From a virus: 35,623 bases of DNA. Of the stretch, positions 6,555-32,755 are shown one piece after another (position 1 is the stretch's first letter; each line of letters starts with the position of its first letter). The stretch is from positions 1-35,623 of IMG/VR virus record IMGVR_UViG_3300032249_000810, one strand, 5' to 3'. The translations under genes were made by a program, and so were the position numbers. Below the pieces are notes generated by a model. That model did no database searches. It was not told where the DNA came from and was given only the letters and a program-made list of their open reading frames with translations.

Positions 6555-7061
6555 ATGAAGCTGGAAGAAAGATTGACGCTTGAGGATGTGCGCGGGCTTT
6601 TAGCCTACAATCCTAAAACGGGCGTGATTACCAATAGGATCAGAAGAAACCCTAGGGCTGCGGCTGGCGCTGCGGCTGGATGTGTGGGAGGGCACGGGTA
6701 TGTAGTGGTTGGGATCAATGGTAGGCTATTCCGGGCGCATCACTTGGCGTGGCTGCTGCATTATGGGATGTGGCCAGCTTCATCAATCGACCACATCAAT
6801 AGGAACAAGCTAGACAACAGCATTAGCAATCTTCGCCTCGCATCTGATAGCGAACAGATGTGGAATCAAAGAGTCCGCAAAAATTCAACATCGGGCATCA
6901 AGGGGGTTATTTGGGTCAAGAAGCTGAAGAAATGGCAGGCATCAGCCTGCATTAATTACAAGAGGTTTACCTTTGGTTGCTTCGAGACAAAAGAAGAGGC
7001 GGCTGAGGCGGTTCGGATCGGGCGCGAGCGACTACATGGTCAGTTTGCCTGTCACGCCTAA
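6555..7061 (+). CDS. HNH homing endonuclease with AP2-type DNA-binding domain
   Basis: This is a 168-aa free-standing HNH/AP2 endonuclease. The HNH core is seen as the HHLAW motif followed by SIDHINRNKLDNSISNLR (about residues 70-98), with the usual His-Asp-His and downstream Asn. The C-terminal part (from about residue 112, GIKGVIWVKKLKKWQ, to FETKEEAAEA) is an AP2-like domain that would bind target DNA. This architecture is common in mobile genes inserted between phage genes. It sits between the virion/small-membrane genes and the tRNA. A second gene of the same architecture lies at 32237-32755. No Shine-Dalgarno is visible. A self-mobilising role is inferred from family knowledge. Confidence 0.88.
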   Translation: MKLEERLTLEDVRGLLAYNPKTGVITNRIRRNPRAAAGAAAGCVGGHGYVVVGINGRLFRAHHLAWLLHYGMWPASSIDHINRNKLDNSISNLRLASDSEQMWNQRVRKNSTSGIKGVIWVKKLKKWQASACINYKRFTFGCFETKEEAAEAVRIGRERLHGQFACHA

Positions 7062-7086: not shown

Positions 7087-7115
7087 TTGACAGCATGGCG
7101 TTTGCGCTGTATGAT
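7087..7115 (+). promoter_or_regulatory. Sigma70-type promoter for the tRNA
   Basis: A consensus TTGACA at 7087-7092 is followed after exactly 17 bp by TATGAT at 7110-7115. This predicts a start at about 7122, some seven bases before the tRNA. It is the best promoter match I saw in the window. It probably also serves the zinc-ribbon and endolysin genes downstream. The -10 overlaps a GTATGA...TCATAC inverted repeat, so it may be repressed. Confidence 0.75.
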
Positions 7116-7126
7116 GTTCGTCATAC
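7109..7126. promoter_or_regulatory. Operator-like inverted repeat over the tRNA promoter
   Basis: GTATGA (7109-7114) and TCATAC (7121-7126) form a perfect 6-bp inverted repeat. It extends to the heptamers GTATGAT and GTCATAC, whose starts are 11 bp apart. It covers the -10 element and the predicted transcription start. The heptamer recurs at the control-region sites near 19.2, 19.8 and 21.5 kb. Confidence 0.5.
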
Positions 7127-8428: not shown

Positions 8429-8487
8429 AAAACCATAAATCTTAATGGGTTCAGAAGGAAAAGCGGCGAATCCTACGGGGTAAAAAG

Positions 8488-8530
8488 TGCGCGATACAGG
8501 ATTTGAACCTGTCTCCTACTCAGGCTTAGT
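8488..8530 (-). other. attP core: 3' fragment of a host tRNA gene
   Basis: On the minus strand this reads as the 3' part of a tRNA: a TGAGT-like anticodon-stem strand, variable loop, T arm ACAGG-TTCAAAT-CCTGT (8512-8496), acceptor strand ATCGCGC (8495-8489) and discriminator A (8488). No matching 5' half (GCGCGAT) lies within tRNA distance at higher coordinates, so it is not a complete gene. A tRNA 3' end next to an integrase gene is the classic signature of an attachment site that restores the host tRNA on integration. Phage genes lie on both sides, so the sequence is the excised or virion form. Isotype not assignable. Confidence 0.75.
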
Positions 8531-8664
8531 ATTTTCTCAAGGTATGGATTTTGCGGCATTTAGAATCAGACTTGAGTGATGCGTTCTTAGTTGCGAGTTA
8601 GGTTTTATTGTCGTTTCTTGACGGAACCTCTTGATTTGTTGGCGCAAAGGCTAGAATTTCAGCG

Positions 8665-9936
8665 ATGCCTAAATCTCCTGCCGTCAAAGTCCGATTCGAC
8701 GCAACAACAGCATATTGGTGCGTCGATGCTCCGCCGTCAATCTCCCCGACTGGTGTTCGTTTGCGCGAGCATTTCCGAGACGAAATCAAAGCGCGTGACC
8801 GTGCGGCGGAACTCCGGCAAGCCGTCCTGAGGAATCAGTCGGGCCGGAAAGCAATCAGTGAAGACCTCGCGCGGGTCGCGGTCTACTATGACGGGATCTT
8901 CCAGGGGCTCGGCTACGACGGCTTGGAGTCCGCTTGCCGTGAGTTCCACCTTCGAATCCAATCAACGGCAGGTTCTCCAACCTTGCGCTCCCTGGTCACT
9001 GCTTACCTTCAGGAGATGCCCGCACCTTACAACGTCGCGGTGTTCCGTCGCCTGGAGGCCGCGCTTTCCCCGGGACTCTTCGACAGAGAGACTGGCACGA
9101 TGGACGGCGATTTCTGGCGGGATGAAATTTCCGCTGCATTCCGGCGCCGCGGCTGGTCCGCGAAAACTCACAACGATCTTGTGTCGTACCTGCGAAGCCT
9201 CTTCCAGTTCGCGGTTGACAATCGGAAGTTGCCAATCAACCCGATTGCGGCAATCAGGCCGAAGAACGTCATCAAGCGTTCCGCCGCAATCATCACCCCT
9301 GGCCAGCTTCGCGAGCTTCTTTCGACTTGCCTTCGCGACGATCCGCCTATCGCTCTTTACTTTGCGGTGCTCTGCTTCGGAGGTCTTCGCCCGGTCGCGG
9401 AATTCTCCTCGCCGTCTGGTGTCACCTGGGAGGATGTGTTGTGGGATCGCGGCGTTTTGCGGATCCGCGACACGAAGAACGGGCAAAAGACCGGCCAGCT
9501 AAATCGGTTCGTGACACTGAACGCAACGCTTCTTTCCTGGCTCAACGCATACAAGCAAGACTCTGGCCGGATCTGTCCGAAGAATTGGGCGAAGCGATAC
9601 CCTCTTGCGCTCGAAAAGGTTCCGAGCATTCCGAGAGGCGAACAAAACCGCGACCTCACGCGGCATTCGTTCGGCTCCTATTTGGCTGGCATCGCAACTG
9701 CCGACCAAGTGCGCGGCGAGATGGGCCATACAAGTATGGCAATGTTTTTCCGCCACTACAGGCACGCAGTCACGCGAGAACAGGCTGAGCTATATTGGTC
9801 CTTGACTTATGAGGCTTGCGGAGGTGGTCCAAGGTTGACAACTTCGGAAGTCCTGCATACTTCCGGCGATGCGGAGCAAAGCGCGACGACTTCCGACACT
9901 ACAACCGACTGGGACACAAGCGGAGACGCAAGGTAG
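8665..9936 (+). CDS. int: Tyrosine recombinase (phage integrase)
   Basis: A 423-aa protein. The N-terminal and core-binding region (about residues 95-200) includes an SAM-like segment (NDLVSYLRSLFQFAVDNRKLPINP). The catalytic domain begins with the FGGLRP motif (catalytic Arg), followed by a TKNGQ Lys strand, RHSFGSYL (His-x-x-Arg-like, seen as LTRHSF), MGHTS and the nucleophile Tyr in FFRHYRH. It catalyses integration and, with an excisionase, excision. The last about 45 residues (SGDAEQSATTSDTTTDWD) are low-complexity, and their DNA overlaps the next fibre gene. Immediately upstream lie the attP core and arm-like repeats. The C-terminal box style resembles integrases common in Verrucomicrobiota. 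Confidence 0.95.
   Translation: MPKSPAVKVRFDATTAYWCVDAPPSISPTGVRLREHFRDEIKARDRAAELRQAVLRNQSGRKAISEDLARVAVYYDGIFQGLGYDGLESACREFHLRIQSTAGSPTLRSLVTAYLQEMPAPYNVAVFRRLEAALSPGLFDRETGTMDGDFWRDEISAAFRRRGWSAKTHNDLVSYLRSLFQFAVDNRKLPINPIAAIRPKNVIKRSAAIITPGQLRELLSTCLRDDPPIALYFAVLCFGGLRPVAEFSSPSGVTWEDVLWDRGVLRIRDTKNGQKTGQLNRFVTLNATLLSWLNAYKQDSGRICPKNWAKRYPLALEKVPSIPRGEQNRDLTRHSFGSYLAGIATADQVRGEMGHTSMAMFFRHYRHAVTREQAELYWSLTYEACGGGPRLTTSEVLHTSGDAEQSATTSDTTTDWDTSGDAR
9845..9865 (+). promoter_or_regulatory. Hairpin directly before second fibre start
   Basis: CGGAAGT (9845-9851) and ACTTCCG (9859-9865) form a perfect 7-bp stem with a 7-nt loop. The hairpin ends three bases before the ATG at 9869 and lies inside the integrase coding region. 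There is no T-run, so it is not a terminator. It could limit or tune initiation of the overlapping fibre gene. Confidence 0.35.
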
Positions 9937-11794
9937 CGTCACGCTGCATCGGGCGCTCCCGACTTCAACCGGCGCCCCTGGTGCTGATGGGGATGACGGA
10001 TGGTCTCCCGTCCTTGCGGTCGTCACCGATGGTTCTCGCCGCGTGCATCAAGTCATCGACTGGACGGGCGGAACGGGCACAAAGCCAGCAACCGGCCTCT
10101 ACGTTGGAGCTTCTGGACTTACTGCGGTCCTTGCTGATGCGATTGATATTCGAGGAGCGGCAGGAGCTACAGGGGCGACGGGTTCCACTGGATCAGCAGG
10201 GGCGGCGGGCAGTAATGGAACGAATGGATGGTCCCCCGTTTTTGCGGTTGTTACTGACGGATCCCGTCGCGTCCTTCAGGTTTCTGACTGGACGGGCGGA
10301 ACAGGAAGCAAACCCGAAGCCGGGCTTTACGTTGGAGTTTCCGGCCTGACTGCCGTCCTTGCCGATGCGATTGATGTTCGGGGAGCGACGGGAGCGACGG
10401 GAGCGACTGGTAATTCTACGACGTGGCTTAATGGGACAGGGAATCCTCACCCGGCGCTAGGAGCAGTTGGCGATTATTACGTAGATTACAACACGCATGA
10501 CGTTCACGAAAAGACCGGGGCATCTACTTGGACTTATCGGATGAACATCTTAGGGGCGACCGGCCCCTCTGGGGCAACTGGGCCGCCAGCAGGTTTAAAT
10601 TATATTCGCGGCGGCAATTCCAACCCTCCCGGATCTGGTCGGCTAAAGGTAAACACTTCGACGGAAACCGCAATTACAGAATTGCAGGTGTATGATATGG
10701 ACATGGGTGACGAAAACAATGGTGCCTTTCTTGAGTCAGTTCGGCCTGGAAGCACCATTGTTCTTACAGGTGAAGGATTGAGCGGGGTGCTTTTGACGGT
10801 AGCGTCCGTTTCAAGATCGAGCCAGATTTCTACGTTTGTCATTTCCTCGTCAACTGGCAGCCTTATGGCTGTAGGGGCAACAGCAGGTTTAATTGTTTGC
10901 CCGCCAGGAACTGACGGATTAGACTCAACGGGCGGATGCGACATTCAATTACTCACGACATCCGGCACGTGGACGAAACCGGCTGGAGCGACGTATTGCG
11001 ATATCACGTTGCAAGGCGGTGGTGGCGGCGGAGGATCGGGACGGCGCGGCGCAACATCGACTAACCGCATGGGCGGGGGGGGAGGCGCTCCCGGATCGCG
11101 GCGTATGGTTCGGGTTCCGGCGAGTATCTTTGACGCAACGGAAGCCTACACGATTGGCGCTGGCGGGCCCGGTGGGGCGGCGATCTCCACGGACAGCACA
11201 AACGGCGCGACTGGAACGGCTGGAGGGTTGACCCGGTTTGACGATTTCGGCACGTCTCTATTTGCAAACGGCGGCGCGGCGGGCGCGGGAGGGACGGCAG
11301 CAAACGGCAATCCGGGAAGCGGTGCCGTCAATGGTTTCTCTAATCTACTGATGGGCTTGCTAGCAAATGCACCAAACGGCGGGACAGGCTCAACAACTGC
11401 GCCGACTGTTGGCGTTGCTCCTACTGTTATCATGCCGACGGGCGGCGGGGGTGGTGGCGGTATCAGCAGCGCCAACGCTCTTGGGACTGGCGCGGCTGGC
11501 GGCGGTTTGACGCTCGATGGTGGAACTTTCTTTGCAGGGGGCGCGGGAGGTGCGCCTGCGACAGCAGGCTCAGCGGGCGGTAGTCTGGCTAATTACCTGC
11601 TAGGAACTGGCGGCGGTGGTGGCGGGACTGGAGGAAACAATGGTCTGACAAACGGCGGCACGGGTGGCGAGGGCGGCGGCTATGGATCAGGAGGTGGCGG
11701 AGGAGGGGCGGCTAGTCAGTCGGCGGCATCCTCATCCGGCAAGGGCGGAGATGGGGCGCCTGGATTTATTTTAGTAATCACATATTTAGGATAA
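9869..11794 (+). CDS. Second tail fibre/receptor-binding protein with glycine-rich tip
   Basis: A 641-aa protein. After about 30 unusual residues come collagen-like G-x-y runs and two copies of a 76-residue module (WSPVLAVVTDGSRRV, WTGGTGTKPATGLYVG). A further collagen-like region and a carbohydrate-binding-like beta segment follow. The C-terminal half (from about residue 375) is a Gly-rich domain with long G runs (YTIGAGGPGGAA and others). Such domains form receptor-binding tips in phage fibres. There is no virion-anchor domain like that in the fibre at 23107. The ATG at 9869 is the only convincing start and overlaps the integrase by 68 bp. It may therefore attach to another fibre, be a side fibre, or have lost its anchor. 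Confidence 0.8.
   Translation: MRSKARRLPTLQPTGTQAETQGSVTLHRALPTSTGAPGADGDDGWSPVLAVVTDGSRRVHQVIDWTGGTGTKPATGLYVGASGLTAVLADAIDIRGAAGATGATGSTGSAGAAGSNGTNGWSPVFAVVTDGSRRVLQVSDWTGGTGSKPEAGLYVGVSGLTAVLADAIDVRGATGATGATGNSTTWLNGTGNPHPALGAVGDYYVDYNTHDVHEKTGASTWTYRMNILGATGPSGATGPPAGLNYIRGGNSNPPGSGRLKVNTSTETAITELQVYDMDMGDENNGAFLESVRPGSTIVLTGEGLSGVLLTVASVSRSSQISTFVISSSTGSLMAVGATAGLIVCPPGTDGLDSTGGCDIQLLTTSGTWTKPAGATYCDITLQGGGGGGGSGRRGATSTNRMGGGGGAPGSRRMVRVPASIFDATEAYTIGAGGPGGAAISTDSTNGATGTAGGLTRFDDFGTSLFANGGAAGAGGTAANGNPGSGAVNGFSNLLMGLLANAPNGGTGSTTAPTVGVAPTVIMPTGGGGGGGISSANALGTGAAGGGLTLDGGTFFAGGAGGAPATAGSAGGSLANYLLGTGGGGGGTGGNNGLTNGGTGGEGGGYGSGGGGGGAASQSAASSSGKGGDGAPGFILVITYLG
9998..10400 (+). repeat. Duplicated fibre module, 228-bp period
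   Basis: Two copies begin at the GGATGG of 9998 and 10226 (period 228 bp, 76 codons). Both encode the WSPV...VVTDGSRRV...DWTGGTG...GLYVG...GLTAVLADAID module. The copies are similar but not identical, implying an older duplication or recombination between fibre modules. Confidence 0.8.
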
Positions 11795-12727: not shown

Positions 12728-13816
12728 CTAAGCGGCGTAAACTCGCCCTTTAATCACCTTTTTGTTGTGAAGCTCAAACTCGCCATTCTCTCCGACGATC
12801 TCCGCGATAGCAAAACCGTGGTTCCAGGCATTCATGGGCAGATACTCGGGCGACAGGTGGCACAAACAACCGAGCGAGAACGTCGAATACTCGCTGTTAT
12901 CAAGGGACCGCTCCGAGTGGCTGGACGTTTTGTGATAATGCCCGCCGATCATCGTTGATTTTGCGCGGAGCCAGTAGCCGCGGGCCGGGTTGACCGGCGA
13001 AGTGAACGACTTGCCGAACTCGTGACCGTGCAGAACTGGGAGCTTTCCGAAAGTGCCATAGCAACGCGACGGAATCAGGGTGATTCCGAAGCGGGCAAGG
13101 TCCATGATCGAGGCGAATTCGAAAGCATCGATTCCAAGAAGCTCGGGCGCACGTTTGATCATGAACGCATTGTAGCGTTCCTCGTGATTGCCGAGCTTGT
13201 AGTAGATGCGCGAGTCGTGGAACACCGTTCGAATCACTCCGAGAAGCTGCTTGGTTGCTTCGATCTCGCGTTTCAGATCACGCTTGCGCGGGTCGGATTC
13301 CCATCGGGAAATAGAGTAAAAGTCGATGATGTCCCCGTTGAGAATGACGCAATCGACGTTCTCCTCAACTCCGGTTTGCAATGCGCAACGGAGGGCAACC
13401 TTATCGTGGTAGGGAACGTGCACGTCCGAGATAAGGAGTGCTTTGGTTCCTTCGATCTTGACCGCATCCCACACGTCTAGGGATTCGATGGGTTCCGGCA
13501 GTCCGTCGAAGATGTCGTTTCCAGCATCGGTGCCGCGCGAGGACTTGCAATGAATCGCCTTGTCGGCACTCTTGGCGCGGTGCGCGTCGCCAATCTGTCC
13601 GCGATAGTATCGGATCATGTTTCGGCATCGCTCGTAATTGGTCCAGAGCTTTGGGTTGCGCTGCATCGCAAGGCGAGCAAGGCGCATGGTTGGCATGTCT
13701 AAATACTCTGCGCAAATCTTGGCGGCAACTTCCCCGGCTGGGGATCTGCTGCTTTTGAACTTGATTTCATAGACGACCTTTCGCGCGTTCTTCTTCTGTG
13801 GTTTTCGTTCGTTCAT
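12728..13816 (-). CDS. Calcineurin-like metallophosphoesterase with N-terminal helical domain
   Basis: A 362-aa protein. All metal-binding blocks of the superfamily are visible: D131 and H133 in LISDVHVPYHD, D162 in ILNGDIIDF, N210-H211 in LGNHEER, H263/H265 in LHGHEFG and H293/H295 in GGHYHKT. Residues 1-90 form a basic helical region (LARLAMQRNPKLWTNYERCR, ending MIRYYRGQIGD), seen in related phage phosphoesterases and possibly DNA-binding. Substrate unknown: nucleotide, RNA 2',3'-cyclic phosphate and DNA ends are all possible. It lies in the replication operon, downstream of the helicase loader and a small protein. Confidence 0.88.
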   Translation of the reverse strand: MNERKPQKKNARKVVYEIKFKSSRSPAGEVAAKICAEYLDMPTMRLARLAMQRNPKLWTNYERCRNMIRYYRGQIGDAHRAKSADKAIHCKSSRGTDAGNDIFDGLPEPIESLDVWDAVKIEGTKALLISDVHVPYHDKVALRCALQTGVEENVDCVILNGDIIDFYSISRWESDPRKRDLKREIEATKQLLGVIRTVFHDSRIYYKLGNHEERYNAFMIKRAPELLGIDAFEFASIMDLARFGITLIPSRCYGTFGKLPVLHGHEFGKSFTSPVNPARGYWLRAKSTMIGGHYHKTSSHSERSLDNSEYSTFSLGCLCHLSPEYLPMNAWNHGFAIAEIVGENGEFELHNKKVIKGRVYAA

Positions 13817-13827
13817 GGTTGTGTGCG

Positions 13828-14031
13828 TTAAGCTGGAAACAAAGTCATCTGGTCCGGGCTTTCCGCTTCAAGCGGAAGCTCGGGCTGCATCGCAATCTGG
13901 TTGAGCGCGTCAACCATGGCTTGCGCTTGCGCGTCACTGAGTCTGCTGCTGAGGTGGCAATCAGAGAGTCGACCTGGCCCGAGAATAAACCGGACCCCGT
14001 GTTCGTTCACTAGTGTGTATGGTGCATTCAT
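13828..14031 (-). CDS. Small hypothetical protein, 67 aa
   Basis: ATG at 14031, four bases after the loader gene stop; longer in-frame starts would lie inside the loader gene. The sequence MNAPYTLVNEHGVRFILGPG is followed by a helix DAQAQAMVDALNQIAM and an acidic tail ending DQMTLFPA. That tail resembles clamp-binding peptides (Q-x-x-[LM]-x-[LF]-[FW]: QMTLF). Interaction with the sliding clamp is only a suggestion. Confidence 0.6.
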   Translation of the reverse strand: MNAPYTLVNEHGVRFILGPGRLSDCHLSSRLSDAQAQAMVDALNQIAMQPELPLEAESPDQMTLFPA

Positions 14032-14035
14032 GGTA

Positions 14036-14692
14036 TTAGAGAGTTTTGGATTTCCGGCGAACGCTTCCATTACCACGGAACGATTTCCATTTTGGTGCAT
14101 AGAGCCCGCCGCCTTCGCGGACGCGATCCTTGATACTTTGGTCAAGATTCGCTTCAACTTCCTCTTTCGGTCCGTTGGTAATCAAGATGGTTGGTCGTCT
14201 AGCAGAGTGCCGACGAATGAGAAGATCTTGCAGCACTCGTACGCCAAGCGGGTCGCGCATGACGTGAAACATTTCATCAAGGATTAGGATCCGCGTTCCG
14301 ACTCTTCGAGCGCGAATTTTCTGGGCCTCTTCGACGTGCCGGAAAAGGCGACCGGACACCAGAAGCGCAACGTCTTCGAAGTAGTCCTGGGCAAGCTCAT
14401 AGATCCCGTGCCCAATCCTCCGTTGGACCTCTTGCGCAATCGTTGTCTTTCCGGTTCCGCGCTCTCCGCACAGAACGACCACGCCACCGCGCGACATTAC
14501 CCCAGAAATCGCTCCGATTAGTCGAAGCTGGTCAGCAGTCCATGGGAAGTCATCCGGGCTTTCTGTAGCCTTCTCAGGGCCTTCTGGCGGCAAGGGTGGC
14601 AGATTCGATCCAAGAGCCTGCGGATTCTTCATTGCGGCCAATACTCCGCTCATGAGTGTCCCGGGCGTTTTCGGTTCTTCAAAATTCTTCAT
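14036..14692 (-). CDS. DnaC/IstB-like AAA+ helicase loader
   Basis: A 218-aa protein. Walker A is GERGTGKT (residues 76-83), Walker B is RILILDE (134-140) and sensor 1 is TILITN (168-173), followed by a charged C-terminus with arginines. The first 50 residues are Pro-rich and flexible. The family loads the host replicative helicase onto the origin. It starts inside the last 14 bases of the initiator-like gene, so the two are probably translated together, like lambda O/P or DnaT/DnaC pairs. Confidence 0.88.
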   Translation of the reverse strand: MKNFEEPKTPGTLMSGVLAAMKNPQALGSNLPPLPPEGPEKATESPDDFPWTADQLRLIGAISGVMSRGGVVVLCGERGTGKTTIAQEVQRRIGHGIYELAQDYFEDVALLVSGRLFRHVEEAQKIRARRVGTRILILDEMFHVMRDPLGVRVLQDLLIRRHSARRPTILITNGPKEEVEANLDQSIKDRVREGGGLYAPKWKSFRGNGSVRRKSKTL

Positions 14693-15470
14693 AGGGCATT
14701 TCGGCTTGGGTTGCGGTTTGGGTCGCGAAGTCAGCGACGTTTGTGGATAGGAATGACGTAAGAGGTGATCTCCACTTTTCCAACTCGATCAGGTCATAAG
14801 GCGAAGGAAGGAAACGCTTCTCTGCTCTCGGGTTGCGCTTGGCGTAGGTGCAGATTTCCAGGATCGTAGCGCAAAGCTCATCTTGCGTTGTCGCTCCCGA
14901 CTTGATCGCGCGAACCATCGAGTCAATCGCCTGCGAGTCGTATCGCTTGTCGGAAGCGCGGCAATACTCTTGCAGGGTTTGCGCCAGCTTGATCCCGTCG
15001 ATTTTCGGTTCCATCGCTTGCTCGGGCTGTGAGTGTTCTGACGAAGGAAGAACACTCTCTTCTCTATTCTTCTCTTCTCTAGCTAACGGCGGTGTAACGG
15101 TCGGTGCGTTACTTTGTGGCTTTTCCGGTTTGCTGCCCCGATGGGCCGCGACCCTTTTGGCTGTATTTGCACGGGCTTTTGCCGTCTCCCCGTTGTGTTT
15201 CCCGAAGTTCGGAAGAATCAAGACGCCTAGTTTTTCGTCAAGCCACCCCGCGTTTTGCATCGCTTGCGCGAATCCAACAAACGAAACGATAGCATCTACT
15301 GTTACAAGTGTAACGCCTTTAGCGTTACCTGTTTCCGTGTGTTCGTCGAACCATGACCATATAGCCTGAAGCCGACCGACGACAGAAAACCTGTCGAGTC
15401 CTGTTTCGTTCGCAATCTGGAACACTTCCGGCTTTGTGGAAATGTTCGTCTGCATCTTGATCCAACTCAT
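14679..15470 (-). CDS. Replication initiator-like protein (phage O/DnaD type)
   Basis: A 263-aa protein. The start chosen is the ATG overlapping the upstream stop (ATGA). The N-terminal about 75 residues (WIKMQTNISTKPEV, ARL-type helices, NAKGVTLVTVDAIVSFVGF) look like a winged-helix replication-initiation domain. A low-complexity linker follows (SNAPTVTPPLAREEKNREES), then a C-terminal helical domain with FLPSPYDLIELEKW, a pattern of DnaD/DnaB loader-interacting domains. It pairs with the adjacent loader. Function is inferred from architecture and position; no enzymatic motif is expected. Confidence 0.7.
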   Translation of the reverse strand: MSWIKMQTNISTKPEVFQIANETGLDRFSVVGRLQAIWSWFDEHTETGNAKGVTLVTVDAIVSFVGFAQAMQNAGWLDEKLGVLILPNFGKHNGETAKARANTAKRVAAHRGSKPEKPQSNAPTVTPPLAREEKNREESVLPSSEHSQPEQAMEPKIDGIKLAQTLQEYCRASDKRYDSQAIDSMVRAIKSGATTQDELCATILEICTYAKRNPRAEKRFLPSPYDLIELEKWRSPLTSFLSTNVADFATQTATQAEMPYEEF

Positions 15471-15802
15471 GATTTTTTCGCCCAACGTTTCCCTGCAAGC
15501 TCCCTGCCAATCTGGCGGCGTCTTTTAACTTGTTCTTCTTTCTCGCGCGGGTAATTGCTGACGATCAAGTCATCACCTTCCCAGGTCCAGAGGTTGCACT
15601 CTGAGAGGACTTCCGAGAGGAACACCGCGCAAACCATTTGCCACTGGCGATCCTTCCACCGGGCGGCTCCGACAATTCGCCCGCCGTTTTCCTCCGCGTG
15701 GCAATGCGCGAGGAGTGCAAGCCACGTTGCGCGGTCTGTCGGTTCGCTCCCCCGGAAGTCGGAGGAGACAAGGAACTCTAGGGGGATGTTCACCCAGGTC
15801 AT
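15467..15802 (-). CDS. Small replication-module protein, 111 aa
   Basis: It begins MTWVNIPLEFLVSSDFRG and contains WLALLAHCHAEENGGRI and WKDRQWQMVCAVFLSEV, ending in a basic stretch (EEQVKRRRQIGRELAGKRW). The pattern resembles N-terminal winged-helix domains of phage replication proteins, with the Arg/Lys-rich tail likely nucleic-acid binding. It overlaps both neighbours by 4 bp (ATGA). It could be a half-length relative of the initiator-like gene downstream. Confidence 0.6.
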   Translation of the reverse strand: MTWVNIPLEFLVSSDFRGSEPTDRATWLALLAHCHAEENGGRIVGAARWKDRQWQMVCAVFLSEVLSECNLWTWEGDDLIVSNYPREKEEQVKRRRQIGRELAGKRWAKKS

Positions 15803-16122
15803 AATTCGCGAGATGTAAAAAATGTTGTGGTTTTCGGAGTCATCACAAGAGCAGAATGTTGATAGGTTTTAGCCATTAGCTGCTTCGCTAGAGCCTCGGC
15901 GCGTGCGCTAATTGCTTCCTCGCTTGAGGGGAAGCGGGGATAGTTTATTAAGCTCACAACGTAGCCGGATTCCTCGCCTCCAGTGTAAACATACAAGGTC
16001 GGCTCAATCGTCACGCAAAGCCCCTCCTTCATGCACTCCTTCCGACAAATTTGCTTTGCGACTTCAATTGGTCCGCTCATATAGATGCGAACATGATATG
16101 TTGGCAGTGTCAGAGCTTTCAT
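15799..16122 (-). CDS. Conserved phage protein adjacent to PAPS-reductase-like gene, 107 aa
   Basis: ATG at 16122 overlaps the PAPS-reductase-like gene stop (ATGA). The protein reads HVRIYMSGPIEVAKQICRKE, then CMKEGLCVTIEPTLYVYTGGE, VVSLINYPRFPSS and SALVMTP. It has three cysteines and a ferredoxin-like alternation of strands and helices. I recall this family from other phages without a known function. Tight coupling with the PP-loop protein suggests they act together. Confidence 0.7.
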   Translation of the reverse strand: MKALTLPTYHVRIYMSGPIEVAKQICRKECMKEGLCVTIEPTLYVYTGGEESGYVVSLINYPRFPSSEEAISARAEALAKQLMAKTYQHSALVMTPKTTTFFTSREL

Positions 16123-16901
16123 ATAGAAGCCCCTCCGTCGTAACATCCGCATGGCACCAAATCGGGTAGATCTTCGAAAAGCTTCATCTGTGCATCGTCG
16201 GCTTTTACAAGGTCTTCCCATTTCCAATTCCTGCCAAGTCCAACAACGGTTGTCAATGCGGTAGCTCCTCGCTCCATTTCGATTGCGCGAGCGAATAAAT
16301 CTGGATGCGATTTAGCTAAAGCCAGCACTTCGCCGCGTTTCGAGGCTGGGCAAAAAAAGCAGGCTGATTTGCCTGGATTGAATCCAGCCGCCCTCACAAC
16401 AGCCACGCATTCACGGCGACGCCATCCCCATTCAACGAGTGGATATGTTACAATAAAGCGGTCGTCATTGTAGTCTTTAACTCGGTGTCTCTCCCCTGCG
16501 TCGTAGCCGATAAGCTTTACAACCTTTCCCCCTGACTCCCACGCATCAAGTGCTGGTTTCCATTGCTTTAAATAGTTCTCTTGGGGACGAACCTTGTATT
16601 TATCAGAGCATGATCGCCAGCCAAAAGCGAGTGAGGGAAGGGTTCCCGCTTCGCGCACTTCTTGTTCTAGGGTTTTCCGCTCGTCTCTTACGGTGATTAC
16701 TGGAGGCATTCCGCGATCCACTAGCCACGCGCTGAAATCCTCCACAAATCGCAGCGTTTCCGGCAGTTCGCCACCCGTGTCCGCAAATGTAATAAGATCA
16801 GGACGCACGCCACGGCGCTCCATCTCGATAAGCATCGCGGCGCTATTTGTTCCCCCCCCAAAAGAGACGACAATCGGATAACTTGATGGTTTCTCTTTCA
16901 T
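16119..16901 (-). CDS. PAPS-reductase-like PP-loop protein (adenine nucleotide alpha hydrolase family)
   Basis: A 260-aa protein. The PP-loop SFGGGTNS (residues 13-20) binds ATP or a similar nucleotide for adenylation. TFADTGGELPET (38-49) is typical of the CysH/DndC-like group. Cys98, Cys165, the pair CFFC (181-184) and C251/C253 could bind a metal or Fe-S cluster. Family members reduce PAPS or carry out adenylation/sulfur chemistry on nucleic acids. Phage copies are common and mostly uncharacterised. It has ATGA overlaps with the nuclease upstream and the 107-aa gene downstream. Sulfur modification of DNA or tRNA, or a host metabolic role, is possible. Confidence 0.82.
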   Translation of the reverse strand: MKEKPSSYPIVVSFGGGTNSAAMLIEMERRGVRPDLITFADTGGELPETLRFVEDFSAWLVDRGMPPVITVRDERKTLEQEVREAGTLPSLAFGWRSCSDKYKVRPQENYLKQWKPALDAWESGGKVVKLIGYDAGERHRVKDYNDDRFIVTYPLVEWGWRRRECVAVVRAAGFNPGKSACFFCPASKRGEVLALAKSHPDLFARAIEMERGATALTTVVGLGRNWKWEDLVKADDAQMKLFEDLPDLVPCGCYDGGASI

Positions 16902-17965
16902 CCGATTAGCTCAACGCTCCCTTTGGTTGTTTCGACGGTGGAGACTTGGTCAAGAAGACCGTCCCAAAATTGATTCCAGGCCTTGCCCTTCATGCCGGTC
17001 TTTTTCTTGGCGAGCGGTTCAAGCTCGCCCATGACCGGCTTGACGCATTGCGCGAATTCTTCACCGGTGATTTGAGCTTGCGAGGAAAGCAGGCGGAACA
17101 GGGCCGGAATGTCCGTCAACGTCCGCTGTTTGCGGCCCTTTGTGAGCCGGAACGCTCCACCGAAAGCGTCAAGGTTTGCGCGGGCTTCTTCTTCGACAAG
17201 ATACTCAATCCGCGCAATTGCCTTTTTGACGGCCTTGGCGGTACGATACAGCGCGAGCTTTTCGTCTGGGGTCGCGAGTTCCCATCGACCGGCGTCCGTG
17301 TCTACGACGGCAAGCGTCGCGATTTGCTGGCGATGCGCGGGGCAGATTGCGAGGGCGGGGCAGTAGCGGCAAGCGTCCTCGGACGGTGCCGGGATCGGGT
17401 TGCCCAATACTTCGACCAACTCAATGGACGAAATCAGGGTGAGGATTCTCTCCCATGCGCTCACGAGTTCCCGACGCGTGAAGCATGCGCGGCTTCCCTG
17501 CCCTCGAACGCTTGGTTGCACAATCGCGAGGTCGAAGACTTCGACGCCACGGTAGGCTTTCGCGACCATCAGCGCATAGGCAAGCACTTGCAGATTCCGC
17601 GAAGCGTCAGACACTTTGTTGAAGCCGAATTTCAGGTCAGCGATCAACGCAACCCCGCCCCGAATCTCTACAAGGTCAGGATGCCCAGTGATCAAGACAC
17701 CGTTGATTTCAATTTCCATTGACTGCTCAATGATCGAGACATCTGCGGGCGTCTCATACATTCCGGCGATGATTTCGCGGGCAGTCTCAGCAATATCTAG
17801 GTCGGACGGCGAGAGGTTGACCGGCTTCCCTTCGAGCACGAAAGCGTGCATGTTTGTTCCCCGGATGCTGTCGGCGCTGTCGGGCGACGAAGGCGCGGAT
17901 TTTTCGAGCCAATACGAGGCGGGGCAGGCCTCATAGCGGGCTAAGGATGAGGATCGAAGTTTCAT
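16898..17965 (-). CDS. PD-(D/E)XK exonuclease, RecB/Cas4-like (DUF2800 type)
   Basis: A 355-aa protein. The start chosen is the ATG one base after the upstream stop; a longer frame would run through the repeat tract. Motifs: C14 in YEACP, H40 in RGTNMHAF, GHPD (94-97), DLK (110-112), then QVLAYAL (126-132). A Cys cluster C199, C202, C208 (CRYCPALAIC) with C14 makes the four ligands of a Cas4/AddB-type iron-sulfur cluster. It would resect double-strand ends to give substrate for the ERF annealing protein encoded two genes upstream. Confidence 0.85.
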   Translation of the reverse strand: MKLRSSSLARYEACPASYWLEKSAPSSPDSADSIRGTNMHAFVLEGKPVNLSPSDLDIAETAREIIAGMYETPADVSIIEQSMEIEINGVLITGHPDLVEIRGGVALIADLKFGFNKVSDASRNLQVLAYALMVAKAYRGVEVFDLAIVQPSVRGQGSRACFTRRELVSAWERILTLISSIELVEVLGNPIPAPSEDACRYCPALAICPAHRQQIATLAVVDTDAGRWELATPDEKLALYRTAKAVKKAIARIEYLVEEEARANLDAFGGAFRLTKGRKQRTLTDIPALFRLLSSQAQITGEEFAQCVKPVMGELEPLAKKKTGMKGKAWNQFWDGLLDQVSTVETTKGSVELIG

Positions 17966-17966
17966 T

Positions 17967-18212
17967 TCAGTTCTCGGAGATTTCAGATTCGGGAAAGCGC
18001 AGTTCCCACCGTGAGGCGTGATCGGCGTGATCGGCGTGATCGGCGTGATCGGCGTGACTAGGCTCGGGATCGCCCAACTTGTCCGCAATGCTGTTCGTGG
18101 CTTCGGCTAGCGCGTAACCCCATTCCGGGGTCATGTCGTCAGGGAGGAACAAAATAGGCTCCCCGCCCGGTTCGCACACTGCGAACAGGTCTTCAGAGAA
18201 GAAGTAGAACAT
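17967..18212 (-). CDS. Small acidic protein with (His-Ala-Asp)n repeat, 81 aa
   Basis: The ATG at 18212 shares one base with the ERF stop (TGATG). The N-terminal part (MFYFFSEDLFAVCEPGG, MTPEWGYALAEATNSIAD) looks like a small globular phage protein, followed by a tandem HADHADHADHAD tract and a short tail. The repeat comes from a 9-bp DNA tandem array, so its length may vary between isolates. His and Asp in a regular pattern could bind metal, but this is speculative. It is coupled between ERF and nuclease genes. Confidence 0.65.
   Translation of the reverse strand: MFYFFSEDLFAVCEPGGEPILFLPDDMTPEWGYALAEATNSIADKLGDPEPSHADHADHADHADHASRWELRFPESEISEN
18015..18057. repeat. 9-bp tandem repeat (GGCGTGATC), about 4.8 copies
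   Basis: Four perfect copies of GGCGTGATC and a partial fifth follow without interruption. On the minus strand this is CACGCCGAT, encoding His-Ala-Asp. Because the unit is three codons, slippage would change length without breaking the frame. Confidence 0.9.
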
Positions 18213-18901
18213 CAGGACAGGAAGTCAGGAGCTTGCGCGATTGGTTCGAAGAGGGAGCCGTCTTTATCCCACCGATAGCCGGAGGTTTTCGCCTTGCCGA
18301 CAAGCCACGACCAAGCGGTTTGCTTGGCGACGGCGTCCAGACCGGCAGCGTATGGCGCGAAGCGATTGTAGAGCGCGTTCCAGGCCGCTTTCGATTCGCA
18401 GTCGTCGGCGTCGGCTTCCAGGGCTGGCGGGGGCGTCCATGCCTCCGGTTGCTCGGCAGGCTTCTGCTTCTTGGCTGGTGGCTTCGGCGCAGATTGCGCT
18501 TGCTCCGTCCGTCCGCTGGCGGCGTTCCCGTCGTCGTCCTCCTGGGCGATGCAATACAGCGCGGCGGCGGAAAACCTCCGCAAATATGTCGTTGCTGCCC
18601 CGATCCCTTGGGCGTCCGTCTTGCCAGGAATGCAACTCGCTTCCGTAGTGATGTATCCACCCGACTTGTGAGCAAGGACGGACTGCACCACAACCTGGCC
18701 GTCGACCAGCTTTCCGGCAGACTGCACGAGGGACACCCCGTGTTTTGCGTAGATCGGGCGAGCGGTTCCAAGCACTTCGGCAAGGTCCGCGTATTTGCTT
18801 TTAAAGTGCGGATTTGTGCTGCTCTTGACAGCGTTCTCAACCTCGCACTGAGCGAGACCAAGAGCGGCGAACAATTCAGCGTTGGCGTGTGTTGCGTCCA
18901 T
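18212..18901 (-). CDS. erf: ERF-family single-strand DNA annealing protein
   Basis: A 229-aa protein. ATG at 18901 gives MDATHANAELFAALGLAQCE; the much longer open frame upstream is a shadow. ERF hallmarks are NPHFKSKYADLAEV (30-43), ARPIYAKHGVSLVQS (47-61), and GAATTYLRRFSAAALYCIAQ (101-120) followed by EDDDGN. A Pro/Lys linker leads to a C-terminal helical segment. ERF anneals complementary ssDNA during recombination and genome circularisation. It works with the nuclease two genes downstream as a Red-like pair. Confidence 0.92.
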   Translation of the reverse strand: MDATHANAELFAALGLAQCEVENAVKSSTNPHFKSKYADLAEVLGTARPIYAKHGVSLVQSAGKLVDGQVVVQSVLAHKSGGYITTEASCIPGKTDAQGIGAATTYLRRFSAAALYCIAQEDDDGNAASGRTEQAQSAPKPPAKKQKPAEQPEAWTPPPALEADADDCESKAAWNALYNRFAPYAAGLDAVAKQTAWSWLVGKAKTSGYRWDKDGSLFEPIAQAPDFLS

Positions 18902-18932
18902 AGCTTCGGAAGTGTCAGGATTCGGAAACGAA

Positions 18933-19214
18933 TCAGGCGGCGGAAGCACCTGCCATTTTGCGGATATCCTCCGCACGAACGCGCCAACGTCCGCCAACCT
19001 TGAACGCGCCAGGAAGCTGGTCACGGCACGCAAGGTAATAGGCGGTCGGTTCCGGGATCGACAAGAAGGCGGCAGCCTGCTTGACGGTCCACAATTCCGG
19101 CTTGCCGGTGACTTGCTGGCCAGCTTTGAGTTTGGCGCGTAGTTCGCGTTCTTCGATAGCCAGCGCTTCAAGCCTGGCTTCGACCTCTTTGAGTTCTTCA
19201 GATACGGTTTGCAT
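18933..19214 (-). CDS. Excisionase/MerR-type HTH DNA-binding protein with coiled coil
   Basis: A 93-aa protein. Residues 1-32 form a charged coiled coil (SEELKEVEARLEALAIEERE). Residues 42-88 are a helix_turn_helix_17-type winged helix (WTVKQAAAFLSIPEPTAYYL, then FKVGGRWRVRAEDIRKM). It is the first gene of the minus early operon, and its ATG lies inside the left arm of an inverted repeat (19211-19246). It may be an excisionase/directionality factor or a Cro-like regulator binding that site. Confidence 0.8.
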   Translation of the reverse strand: MQTVSEELKEVEARLEALAIEERELRAKLKAGQQVTGKPELWTVKQAAAFLSIPEPTAYYLACRDQLPGAFKVGGRWRVRAEDIRKMAGASAA

Positions 19215-19246
19215 GTATGACGACTATAATCCGCGGTCATACATGC
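19211..19246. promoter_or_regulatory. Operator: 11-bp perfect inverted repeat in divergent control region
   Basis: GCATGTATGAC (19211-19221) and GTCATACATGC (19236-19246) are perfect inverted copies. The GTATGAC/GTCATAC heptamers start 21 bp apart. The left arm covers the start codon of the HTH gene (ATG at 19214, minus). The spacer contains TATAAT-like sequence on both strands. Binding here would block the early operon. Confidence 0.75.
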
Positions 19247-19346
19247 GCAATACTTTTCTAGAAAATAATCATACACAGTGGAATTATCATAATTGACTCT
19301 CCATTCTTTATTTTGTCTCACGGCGCTTCCGAGCGTAGGAAGTGGC

Positions 19347-19772
19347 ATGACAAAACCCAAACAGGAACGGCATATGCTCTCAGTTGACCTGGAATCGAGA
19401 AAGGCCGTCGAGCGTCTCGAAGCTGCGGCGGAGCGAGCTGACGTTACTAAGAGCGAGCTGGCTCGGTTGGCTGTAGCAGCAATGTGCGATTACATTGAGC
19501 GGGGTGGGAGCCTAAAGGGTGCGGAGTTGATCCAGGAATCAAAGGCCGCTCAGATCAACCGGCTCAGCGAGATTGCTCGCACAACGAACGAAAGCCCGAC
19601 GCGCATCCTCCGGGAGCTAGTAGACGCAATCGAGCCCATGGCCGAAACCGGAGCAATCCCCCGCCCCATCAAGCTCCGGGCCGGTCCTGTCGATGCACGT
19701 TCGGAGCGAATCGCCGGTATGTTGGCGGTATTACGAAGGAACATTCAAGACCTCGAATTGCTCCTTGAGTGA
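19347..19772 (+). CDS. Ribbon-helix-helix-like regulator, candidate repressor
   Basis: A 141-aa protein. The ATG at 19347 is preceded by an AGGA-like Shine-Dalgarno (7-nt spacing); the longer open frame upstream has no good start. The N-terminus MLSVDLESRKAVERLEAAAE, then ADVTKSELARLAVAAMCDYI, reads as strand-helix-helix of the CopG/Arc type. A second helix pair (INRLSEIARTTNESPTRILR) follows, with a C-terminal helix. It is transcribed away from the early operon and flanked by both inverted-repeat operators, so it is the best candidate for the lysogeny repressor. Family assignment is by pattern only. Confidence 0.65.
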   Translation: MTKPKQERHMLSVDLESRKAVERLEAAAERADVTKSELARLAVAAMCDYIERGGSLKGAELIQESKAAQINRLSEIARTTNESPTRILRELVDAIEPMAETGAIPRPIKLRAGPVDARSERIAGMLAVLRRNIQDLELLLE

Positions 19773-19809
19773 CTGATTATGGTAATTTCTAGAATTCGGA
19801 TTGACTCAG

Positions 19810-19839
19810 TGTCATACGGGCGTAAGTTCCCGTATGACA
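19810..19839. promoter_or_regulatory. Operator: 11-bp inverted repeat over start codon
   Basis: TGTCATACGGG (19810-19820) and CCCGTATGACA (19829-19839) are perfect inverted copies with an 8-nt centre. Heptamers GTCATAC and GTATGAC start 21 bp apart, as at 19211-19246. The right arm contains the ATG at 19834. Confidence 0.75.
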
Positions 19840-20115
19840 GAATTCCTGCAACTTGAACCGACTCAGCCCGCCTTTACCGGCGATGAACTTGAACACCTGC
19901 AAGCCGTTCTCGACGGCCTGGACGATTTCGAAGGCGTCGAGCTTGGCGACATCGAAGACGACTGGACCCGTGACGCAGTGGCGGCGCATCGCCAGGAAAT
20001 CGGGGCTTGCGTCGATTGCGGGGGAGAATTTGTAACGCGGCGGATTGACGAGCCGCAGTGTTACCTAGTCGGTGATTATGAGGTTTGTGAAGGATGCGGG
20101 GAGATCGCTCAATGA
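19834..20115 (+). CDS. Small acidic protein with two CxxC pairs, 93 aa
   Basis: The start chosen is the ATG inside the operator; an upstream in-frame TTG at 19801 would span the whole inverted repeat and is less likely. The N-terminal half is acidic (DELEHLQAVLDGLDDFEGVE). The C-terminal half has CVDCGG and CEGCGE, a zinc-ribbon pattern. It overlaps the next gene by ATGA. Position in the control region suggests a regulatory or early takeover role; family not recognised. Confidence 0.7.
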   Translation: MTEFLQLEPTQPAFTGDELEHLQAVLDGLDDFEGVELGDIEDDWTRDAVAAHRQEIGACVDCGGEFVTRRIDEPQCYLVGDYEVCEGCGEIAQ

Positions 20116-20300: not shown

Positions 20301-20850
20301 CGCCCTTGGCTTTTTGCCGGTAGAGCGTGCGCAATGAAACGCCAAGCTCTCTCGCTTTTTTCGCCATTACTCCGGTTCCGTAGGTCGTTTTTGGCTTCTT
20401 GGCTCGCTTCTCCTTTGCTGGCAAAGGCTCAATAGGCGCTCGATCTTCTTTTGTGACTTTCTCCTGCGTCATCATTTGAGTTTGGGCGATCTCTCGAAGC
20501 ATGACCTCGAAAAGAAAGAGGGTCACAATAGGCGGAAACCCATGGCAAACTTTGGCCATCACGTCCAGTTCTCTCACGTGCCAAACGTTGAACATGACGC
20601 TTATAACCGTGAACACGATTGTCAGCGTCAGATACCAAAGATTCTCGCGCTTTGCCAGCGTCGCGCCAAGTGACGCAACGCTGAATCCTATGAGGCTTCC
20701 GTCAACGATCCACGGGAATAAGCCGGGAAATGCCATTTTGTTCTCCCTGGCAAATTCTATCAGGCCCCCGGCAGACGAGGCAAACGACATAATCGTCAAC
20801 GGAACAAGCGTGCTGATGACCATCCATGGCAATTTTAAAGTGCGAGGCAT
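20290..20850 (-). CDS. DUF2637/SpdB-like four-helix membrane protein with C-terminal HTH
   Basis: A 186-aa protein with four predicted transmembrane helices at about 10-34, 42-66, 71-92 and 101-121. The spacing and the motifs FPWIVDGSLIGFSVAS, MFNVWH and FPPIVTLFLFEVMLRE match the DUF2637 pattern I know from actinobacterial SpdB-like plasmid-transfer proteins and phages. A basic linker (EKRAKKPK) leads to an HTH at 160-180 (MAKKARELGVSLRTLYRQK). The gene starts within the last 16 bases of the HNH-HTH gene. Possibly a membrane-tethered DNA-binding protein (DNA anchoring, exclusion or regulation). The family assignment is from memory of motifs. Confidence 0.65.
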   Translation of the reverse strand: MPRTLKLPWMVISTLVPLTIMSFASSAGGLIEFARENKMAFPGLFPWIVDGSLIGFSVASLGATLAKRENLWYLTLTIVFTVISVMFNVWHVRELDVMAKVCHGFPPIVTLFLFEVMLREIAQTQMMTQEKVTKEDRAPIEPLPAKEKRAKKPKTTYGTGVMAKKARELGVSLRTLYRQKAKGVNV

Positions 20851-21428
20851 CCTGAATTGATTCGACGGTAAATGGTTCTGACGCTGACTCCAAGCAAAGC
20901 GGCATATTGCGCTCTTGTCACTTTCTTCTCTCCCTCTTGATGCGCAGTCTTTGGCTTGATTTGTGACGGCTTGGACTGCTCAACAATTTTGCCATCGAGG
21001 GCAAGCTTCCCAGAGTTGAGCCATCGGTAAGCGGTTCGAATGCTGATGCCGTGAGCTTTGGCAGAATCCTTAACTGATGCGCGGTTGGCAATTTTGCGCG
21101 ACTTTGGAACCTTGAATTTTGCGTGAGCAACTCTGTCACTGCCGTTTTCTGCTGCCGTTCCCCAAATTAAATGGCGCGGGTTGACGCAACCCTGGGCGCC
21201 ATTTCCGCAAGTGTGACGACATTGCGCCCCTTCAAATGGTGGCGGAATTGTCATGGCGAGAATGATTCGATGCGGTCGATGATGCTCGACGCCATCGACA
21301 AAGGCTCTCATTGTGCCGTATCCAGATTTTGCCATTCTGAACGGCCAGAGAATGCAATGATCCGCTGACGTAGTTGTCAGCGCCATCAAGTAATCCATTT
21401 TCTTTTTGTGCAAATCGACGCTCGCCAT
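20835..21428 (-). CDS. HNH endonuclease with two C-terminal HTH modules
   Basis: From ATG at 21428 the protein has 197 aa; an ATG 18 nt upstream (21446) is also possible. The N-terminal domain is HNH_3-like: CILWPF, SGYGTM, HRPHRIILAM, CRHTCGNG, CVNPRHLIWGT and ENGSDR. Two HTH modules follow: DSAKAHGISIRTAYRWLNSG and AQYAALLGVSVRTIYRRINS, separated by a Lys/Pro linker. The same HTH pattern ends the overlapping downstream membrane protein. A homing endonuclease with DNA-binding tail is the simplest reading, but the duplicated HTH and operator-bearing promoter point to a phage-integrated role. Confidence 0.8.
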   Translation of the reverse strand: MASVDLHKKKMDYLMALTTTSADHCILWPFRMAKSGYGTMRAFVDGVEHHRPHRIILAMTIPPPFEGAQCRHTCGNGAQGCVNPRHLIWGTAAENGSDRVAHAKFKVPKSRKIANRASVKDSAKAHGISIRTAYRWLNSGKLALDGKIVEQSKPSQIKPKTAHQEGEKKVTRAQYAALLGVSVRTIYRRINSGCLAL

Positions 21429-21468
21429 TGTGGCAAATAATGACATCAAAAAGAAACTATGCAAGAGC

Positions 21469-21498
21469 TGTATGACAAGATGCGGAAAATGTATGACA
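21469..21498. promoter_or_regulatory. Direct-repeat operator upstream of divergent genes
   Basis: TGTATGACA occurs at 21469-21477 and 21490-21498, starts 21 bp apart in the same orientation. It lies between the minus HNH-HTH gene and the plus gene at 21568. A related TATGACA is at 21548-21554. Same heptamer and spacing as the two inverted-repeat operators. Confidence 0.65.
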
Positions 21499-21504
21499 CG
21501 ACTT

Positions 21505-21520
21505 CTTGTCACAAGACAAG
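21505..21520. promoter_or_regulatory. Short palindrome CTTGTC-ACAA-GACAAG
   Basis: A perfect 6-bp inverted repeat with a 4-nt centre, seven bases after the direct-repeat operator in the same divergent intergenic region. It could be a second regulator's site. Confidence 0.35.
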
Positions 21521-21567
21521 GTTCGCTTGCTTGCTTTTTGTCGCAAATATGACAAAGTTGAATCCAA

Positions 21568-22062
21568 ATGGCATCAAGAGACTTGGCAAACATCGCAAAG
21601 GCACGCTATGGCGAATTGCTGAAAGCTGGCATTGCGCCACTGGCCGCCTATTGCGAAGCAACCGGGAAGCCGGACACAAAGGCCGCGCGAGAAACTGCGT
21701 CACGATGGAAGCGTGATCCGGTTGTCTTGGCCGTCATCAATCCGCCATCTCCCAGGCCGGTCCAAGAGGTGGTTGTTTCAGTGTCCGAGAAGCTGCCTTT
21801 CTCGCGAGATCAGATGATTTCCAAGATGATGTTTTTGGCCATGGCTGACAACGCAGATGAGAGCCCGCAATGGGCCGCCGTGCAGATTCAAGCTATGAGA
21901 TCAGTCTTCGAGTGGATGGGTTGGCAGAAGCCTGAAAAGGATGAAGCAGAAGACCTCGGCGCCCTGGTCCGCCGTCTAATCAAGCCGACTCCGGGCCTTC
22001 ACGGGGAGCACGTCAATCACGTCGCCATGGAAGCGCAGCAGGCAATGAAAAGCCCGGCCTGA
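21568..22062 (+). CDS. Putative DNA-binding protein, possible small terminase subunit
   Basis: A 164-aa protein. The N-terminal region LANIAKARYGELLKAGIAPL, then AAYCEATGKPDTKAARETAS, looks like a helical DNA-binding domain. The C-terminal part has MISKMMFLAMADNADESPQW and IQAMRSVFEWMGWQKPEKDE, a layout seen in some phage small terminases. It lies 4 kb upstream of the large terminase and is separated from it, so position does not decide. The 91-aa gene next to the large terminase is the rival candidate. Its stop lies in a strong hairpin. Confidence 0.45.
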   Translation: MASRDLANIAKARYGELLKAGIAPLAAYCEATGKPDTKAARETASRWKRDPVVLAVINPPSPRPVQEVVVSVSEKLPFSRDQMISKMMFLAMADNADESPQWAAVQIQAMRSVFEWMGWQKPEKDEAEDLGALVRRLIKPTPGLHGEHVNHVAMEAQQAMKSPA

Positions 22063-22870: not shown

Positions 22871-23026
22871 CCGGTAATAGGTGCGGCAATACGAAAAGTA
22901 AGAGAAGAAAAGGAAAAGACAGTAGTCTAAAGCCTACTGTCTCTGCGCTACGCGCGAACGGTCGGTCGGGCTAAGCGTAAGCCGTTTTGGATGGGAAGAA
23001 GGATGTTGCAAAGAACCGAGCGTGGC

Positions 23027-23044
23027 GTATGATTTCGGTATGAC
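23027..23044. promoter_or_regulatory. GTATGAT/GTATGAC pair, 11 bp apart
   Basis: GTATGAT (23027-23033) and GTATGAC (23038-23044) lie in direct orientation with starts 11 bp apart, about 65 bp upstream of the fibre ATG. The heptamer is that of the control-region operators. Confidence 0.4.
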
Positions 23045-32236: not shown

Positions 32237-32755
32237 ATGACGATTGACGGCGTTGAGTTGTTTGTTATCCCAGGAATCGACAACTACCTTATTTCTCGAT
32301 GCGGGAAAGTTTGGAGCATGGCTAGAAAGATTCCGACAAAAGGCGGGGCTATGTATTCCCGTCGAGGTAGATGGTTGAAACAAGTTCCGACAACGGCTGG
32401 ATATCCCCGCGTTACAATCGGGAAAGACAGGCTTGTGCATCGGCTCGTTGGTAGCGCCTTTCTTGGCTTGATGGAGGATCAGTGGATTGACCACAAGGAC
32501 GGCGACCGCTCCAATAATCACGTCGACAACCTCCGTATTTGTGATCCGAAGCAAAACCAATGGAACAAGAAAGGGTTTAGCAAAGGCGGGGTAAAGGGGG
32601 TTTCTCAATATAAAAAGACCGGGCGATGGAGGGCGATGATCAGAAAGAACGGGAAGAATGTTTACCTTGGTTCTTTCGGCACAAAAGAAGAAGCCGGTGA
32701 AAGATACCGGGAAGAAGCAAGAAAGCTTCACGGGGAATTCTTGAAAACTGCATAA
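32237..32755 (+). CDS. Second HNH homing endonuclease with AP2-type domain
   Basis: A 172-aa protein. The N-terminal region FVIPGIDNYLISRCGKVWSM looks like a NUMOD4-type motif. The HNH core is VHRLVGSAFLG, then WIDHKDGDRSNNHVDNLRIC. The AP2-like tail is GVKGVSQYKKTGRWRAMIRK, then YLGSFGTKEEAGERYREEA. It is inserted between tail tubular A and B, a frequent site for such mobile genes. Its stop shares one base with the ATG of the next gene (TAATG). Confidence 0.9.
   Translation: MTIDGVELFVIPGIDNYLISRCGKVWSMARKIPTKGGAMYSRRGRWLKQVPTTAGYPRVTIGKDRLVHRLVGSAFLGLMEDQWIDHKDGDRSNNHVDNLRICDPKQNQWNKKGFSKGGVKGVSQYKKTGRWRAMIRKNGKNVYLGSFGTKEEAGERYREEARKLHGEFLKTA

Follow-up and report, generated by a model that had tools for sequence, protein, structure and literature searches.

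Operators of the CopG/MetJ/Arc-type ribbon-helix-helix (RHH) proteins comprise short half-sites, each bound by one dimer and set along the same helix face at a distance of one or two turns, and are found mostly in one place beside the regulator gene. The GTATGAC sites that we describe here resemble these operators in half-site length, helical spacing and one-face layout, but they are dispersed over the window, i.e. the whole 35,623-nt stretch of viral DNA that we analyzed. The E. coli NikR operator has been published as GTATGA-N16-TCATAC (PMC7055735); at each half-site, NikR places its RHH sheet in the major groove (PMC4486848). One of our sites (19215-19242) is, in its half-sites and spacing, letter for letter this operator. 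The likeness to the operator of nikABCDE, itself read by an RHH protein, thus comprises half-sites, spacing and promoter overlap; the actual nikA promoter (L178:2603-2630) reads GTATGACGAATACTTAAAATCGTCATAC and is identical to the minus strand of the window site at 20 of 28 positions. In contrast to the NikR system, the setting here is a phage, there are several sites with everted and direct pairs among them, and the candidate regulator, P0002, has no nickel-binding domain.

Among phages, the SPBRE of SPbeta is likewise a short motif repeated at the promoters of a temperate phage and served by one repressor, but it differs in being a 15-bp single motif, and its repressor MrpR has a tyrosine-recombinase fold (PMC10516654). 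With the stoperators of mycobacteriophage L5 type, too, numerous repressor sites are scattered over a single phage genome; these are asymmetric single sites bound by a monomeric two-domain repressor (PMC9283540), whereas the half-sites in the window are paired, their spacing being fixed and their orientation free. Dispersed phage operators (SPBRE/MrpR, stoperators) and NikR-type RHH operators are therefore already known; what is new, to our knowledge, is a phage operator set with NikR half-sites, a fixed two-turn spacing and free orientation. We know of no description of such a fixed-spacing, free-orientation operator grammar for phage repressors.

Frequency, spacing and position of the GTATGAC heptamer

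The first-pass annotation had proposed that GTATGAC/GTCATAC heptamers, paired with starts 21 or 11 bp apart, form a dispersed operator through which one regulator coordinates five places of this phage. On recheck, all coordinates and pair spacings were correct, and the five places had been rightly named. There are 8 exact copies in the window vs. 1.34 expected (sd 1.06, largest 4) from 100 dinucleotide shuffles of the 35,623-nt window; a second set of 150 shuffles gave a mean of 1.55 with a largest count of 7. Three pairs have 21 bp between their starts, namely 19215(+)/19236(-), 19811(-)/19832(+) and 21470(+)/21491(+), and these are in three different relative orientations: inverted, everted and direct. 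To account for the choice of GTATGAC as the word, all heptamers of the window were tested; among non-tandem heptamers, GTATGAC alone displayed at least 3 equal spacings, and in none of the 150 shuffles did any non-tandem heptamer do so (0/150). The expectation that count and spacing would stand out from shuffled sequence was thus borne out, and a chance origin of the set is ruled out by both shuffle tests. The top over-represented A+T-rich heptamer of the window, TGTATGA (11 copies vs. 1.4 expected), is closely related to GTATGAC. The remaining heptamers with at least 3 equal spacings were set aside, as they are due to a 9-bp tandem repeat, GGCGTGATC, at 18015-18058, where the exonuclease gene region begins.

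The heptamers had also been placed in non-coding or start-codon positions, and we found 7 of the 8 copies to be wholly non-coding, though non-coding DNA makes up 10.3% of the window in our gene set (P ~9e-7), with the eighth containing the start codon at 19834. One motif thus recurs at five intergenic or promoter places of the phage. As judged by statistics, position and promoter overlap, a dispersed operator through which one regulator acts on several promoters is well supported, and we consider it very likely that the GTATGAC sites are a real protein operator.

Probable operators at the early operon and at other promoters

The features on which the argument draws are these (coordinates in the window, strand, description):

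7087..7126, plus: tRNA promoter TTGACA-17-TATGAT, sigma70-like, 11/12
8665-9936: tyrosine integrase
12728..19214, minus: early operon, the main proposed target of the operator
18933..19214, minus: P0003, HTH_17/excisionase-like, encoded at the head of the early operon; rival candidate regulator (PF12728, E=8e-11; phrog_66, E=3e-7)
19211..19246, no strand: operator 1, inverted pair GCATGTATGAC-N14-GTCATACATGC, half-sites 19215-19221 and 19236-19242
19216..19250, minus: putative leftward early promoter TTGCGC-16-TATAGT, 8/12 consensus match, weak on its own
19268..19274, minus: extra half-site GTATGAT, 32 bp from 19236
19347..19772, plus: P0002, CopG/ribbon-helix-helix-like, 141 aa, proposed repressor
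19810..19839, no strand: operator 2, everted pair TGTCATACGGG-N8-CCCGTATGACA, half-sites 19811-19817 and 19832-19838
19834..20115, plus: small gene whose ATG lies inside a GTATGAC of operator 2
21470..21497, plus: operator 3, direct pair GTATGAC-N14-GTATGAC
23006..23044, plus: fibre promoter TTGCAA-16-TATGAT, sigma70-like, 9/12

The arms of operator 1 form a perfect 11-bp inverted repeat with a TATAAT/TATAGT-like core between them. With respect to the putative leftward promoter, one half-site is in the spacer and the other just past the -10 box; the predicted start near 19216 would give transcripts with almost no leader ahead of ATG 19214 of P0003. The genes of the early operon comprise P0003, an ERF recombinase, an exonuclease, a PAPS-reductase-like protein, a replication initiator, a DnaC-like loader and a phosphoesterase. 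The P0002 gene adjoins operator 1 on the right, divergent from the early operon, and has half-sites in helical phase upstream (19215, 19236, 19268) as well as downstream (19811, 19832), as looked for beside the gene of an RHH repressor. A second shared element, TTCTAGAAAATA (19256-19267) and TAATTTCTAGAA (19783-19794), a 92% inverted match, borders the P0002 gene on both sides, adjoining operators 1 and 2, and is perhaps the site of a second regulator. We also noticed that GTATGACGACTATAAT, at L043:8169-8196 in an A+T-rich virus contig, exactly matches the first 16 bases of the operator 1 core and has GTCATAC at +21; no RHH_1 match was found in that record.

Operator 2, whose arms are again perfect over 11 bp, overlies the start codon of the 19834 gene, with ATG 19834 in its second half-site. 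Operator 3 is flanked by the leftward HNH/DUF2637 genes on one side and the rightward 21568 gene on the other, and an ATATGAC at 21547-21553, in the promoter region of the latter gene, may be a further half-site of it. In the tRNA promoter, GTATGAT (7109) is the -10 box and GTCATAC (7120) follows 11 bp further; in the fibre promoter, GTATGAT (23027) is the -10 box, with GTATGAC (23038) again 11 bp further, so that in both the true heptamer sits at the expected transcription start, 11 bp past the T-ending copy. Because these T-ending copies coincide with -10 TATGAT, the 11-bp pairs are half explained by the promoter consensus. The pairs with 11-bp spacing, which the first-pass annotation had counted as operators on a par with the others, are thus correctly located, but one member of each is also a plain -10 box, and their status as full operators was not clearly supported.

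Similar sites in other virus contigs

A scan of viral contigs for GTATGAC-N14-GTCATAC yielded 89 contigs and its everted control 92; hence inverted N14 pairs are overall no commoner in viral contigs than everted ones, and most of the pair matches are due to chance. Neither were RHH genes enriched with the inverted pair, with 3 of 74 contigs at E<=0.01 (2 over cut-off) vs. 5 of 50 in the everted control set (0 over cut-off). Two records, which are examples picked after the fact and not statistics, nevertheless deserve description. In the first, L022, an 18-kb record of an unrelated virus contig (GC 63%), an RHH_1 gene over the Pfam cut-off (5426-5668) has CTATGAC-N14-GTCATAG, at 21 bp, on its own promoter TTGACT-17-TATTAT (5374-5402), in addition to TATGAC at 5400 and ATATGAC at 5361. 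A second promoter of this record, TTGACG-17-TATAAC (10276-10304), contains GTATGAC-N14-GTCATAC, and upstream of it are two ATATGAC copies at a distance of 10 bp from each other. The RHH gene is followed by an HTH_17-like gene, so that both candidate protein types of the window recur here. L022 supports an RHH protein as the reader of GTATGAC-type half-sites. In the second record (L019), a GTATGAC-N14-GTCATAC pair is on the promoter TTGCAA-17-TACATT, before an operon with an RHH_1 gene (E=5e-10). A tandem duplication of ~60 bp was seen in the tail of the L022 RHH gene (L022:5560-5680).

Around the pairs, the loci that these scans retrieved show a clustering of extra GTATGAC copies, with 18 further spacings within 60 bp vs. 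0-3 for five control heptamers. Two of the loci, L210:7314-7586 and L191:777-832, have the arrangement GTCATAC-10-GTCATAC-21-GTATGAC in common, with seven copies in about 270 bp in L210. Another, L244:3132-3238, has five GTATGAC/GTCATAC copies with spacings of 33, 21, 33 and 13 bp around a promoter-like stretch, TTGGTTATAAT. The gene directly before the L244 cluster was considered as an RHH gene, being RHH-like by eye; it had no Pfam match, and the structure model of this neighbor (pLDDT 49.5) was too poor for a fold search. Near a contig end, L182:1579-1648 (L015) displays three copies of a palindrome, GTCATACGTATGAC, with a 28-bp period, and the record has a weak RHH_1 match. We raise tentatively the possibility that TATGAC is a recurring recognition code for the RHH repressors of unrelated viruses and for bacterial NikR, in which spacing (one, two or three turns) would be fixed and orientation free, the latter because each half-site is pseudo-symmetric.

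The proposed repressor, competing explanations and the phage

We surmise that the GTATGAC heptamers are probably the half-sites of a dispersed operator for the phage's own RHH repressor, P0002. The heptamer is a pseudo-palindrome, as GT-ATG-AC reads GT-CAT-AC on the opposite strand (GT-NNN-AC on both), and hence could be bound either way round. One symmetric RHH dimer would occupy each heptamer, with its two-stranded sheet in the major groove, and two dimers two helix turns (21 bp) apart on one helix face would bind cooperatively, as NikR does on GTATGA-N16-TCATAC. Since a symmetric dimer makes the orientations nearly equivalent, this arrangement would explain why inverted, everted and direct pairs all occur at 21 bp; the tolerance of everted and direct pairs is our extension from the inverted pair, the one arrangement with a known protein. 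At the early operon, the 19834 gene and the 21568 region, the bound complex would sit over the -10/start regions and cause repression, and weaker binding at the one-turn (11-bp) pairs would repress the tRNA and fibre promoters. In this manner, P0002 would keep the integrase-bearing (temperate) phage quiet and control its own region.

We infer that P0002 is an RHH protein, that it binds these sites and that its binding represses. Comparisons bearing on the RHH fold gave the following: 1) P0002 matches the CopG-like repressor phrog_7325 (E=3.3e-4, from residues about 18-47 on to 90), a RelB-like antitoxin (0.003, residues about 18-47) and RHH_1 (E=0.26, under the Pfam cut-off, over the same residues); 2) hhalign with four RHH proteins gave P=0.005 and 27%, with the strand and both helices aligned; 3) a single-sequence model placed helices at 15-30 and 35-53, as an RHH fold needs, at low confidence (pLDDT 49). 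This model was too poor as a query for fold searches, and a small home-made profile of 4 RHH sequences did not separate P0002 from shuffles. Sequence searches recovered no relatives of P0002 in phages, plasmids, viral or genome contigs, and there was no meaningful match in the PDB and none to NikR by BLASTP. That P0002 is itself a NikR is excluded by the lack of a nickel-binding domain; its single His (9) and its single Cys (47) both belong to the N-terminal half of the protein. The RHH assignment of P0002 from these comparisons is weak. Two proteins had been named as possible regulators, and the evidence favors the RHH-like one (19347-19772) over the HTH_17/excisionase-like one (18933-19214), since the inverted pair is exactly the operator to which the RHH protein NikR binds and since the same half-sites recur in an unrelated virus contig with an RHH gene. 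On balance, we think it probable that P0002 reads the GTATGAC sites.

As an alternative, the sites could be boxes for P0003, on the model of P2 Cox, a protein that doubles as excisionase and repressor and uses short repeated boxes. P0003 is clearly a DNA-binding protein by its profile matches, its start codon is inside operator 1, the family that it matches (phrog_66) is annotated 'excisionase and transcriptional regulator', and in L022 an HTH_17-like gene likewise adjoins the RHH gene. However, no GTATGAC pair is found around about 8490-8540, where the probable attP adjoins the integrase, the NikR-identical operator 1 points to RHH, and, while Cox-type boxes are usually direct repeats, the pairs in the window are equally inverted, everted and direct. 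We therefore regard P0003 as an unlikely reader.

We also considered that RNA hairpins from the inverted pairs hide start codons, a form of translational control in which the heptamer is start-codon context. Both pairs with 11-bp arms are predicted to fold strongly as RNA (-17.7 and -19.1 kcal/mol, z -3.5 and -3.8), with ATG 19834 and ATG 19214 in the 3' arms (19205-19250 on the minus strand, 19800-19850 on the plus strand), but the direct pair 21470/21491 (z -0.7) forms no such hairpin and yet has the same heptamer and 21-bp spacing; in addition, the candidate -10 box of the left promoter is inside the loop, so its transcripts would be without the 5' arm. Such control appears improbable. The exact E. 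coli NikR site at operator 1 might equally be taken to mean that a host NikR, or another host RHH regulator, binds and ties phage expression to the nickel status of the host; this we hold to be very improbable, given that no nickel gene was noticed among the named genes of the window and that, of the three 21-bp pairs, only one has the NikR orientation. That the heptamers are mere promoter elements (TATGAC/TATGAT -10 boxes) for a host sigma factor would suit the good -10 boxes at 7109 and 23027, but it is most improbable as TATGAC is without the essential last T, no sigma70-like promoter at 19 and 21 kb uses GTATGAC as its -10, and 21-bp pairs in three orientations are left unexplained.

Returning to P0002 as the proposed repressor, the presence of a tyrosine integrase suggests that the phage is probably temperate. 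Upstream of the integrase gene at 8665, the stretch 8485-8540 resembles a tRNA gene 3' end (antisense GGATTTGAACCTGTCTCC) and is the probable attP; a host search by this tRNA-3'-end-like pattern found no exact match in genome_contigs. Close relatives were found neither by megablast nor by queries with P0002, P0003, connector and tail proteins, and sequence searches with P0003 found no relatives of this protein. Identity of the tail, connector and terminase proteins to any match found was at most about 36%, and among 50 distant relatives, whose tail proteins were about 27-36% identical, none had the 21-bp pair. The phage is thus a podovirus-like orphan without close relatives in the databases searched. 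If our reading is true, the lysis-lysogeny repressor of this temperate orphan would have been identified together with its entire regulon, and a NikR-type RHH operator would be the basis of control in a phage. The rule of fixed two-turn spacing with free orientation would then be a simple, testable means of searching viral contigs that lack annotation for RHH repressors and the genes they control. The window also harbors three HNH endonuclease genes (6555-7061, 20835-21593 and 32237-32755), two of them with AP2 domains, which are candidates for free-standing homing endonucleases.
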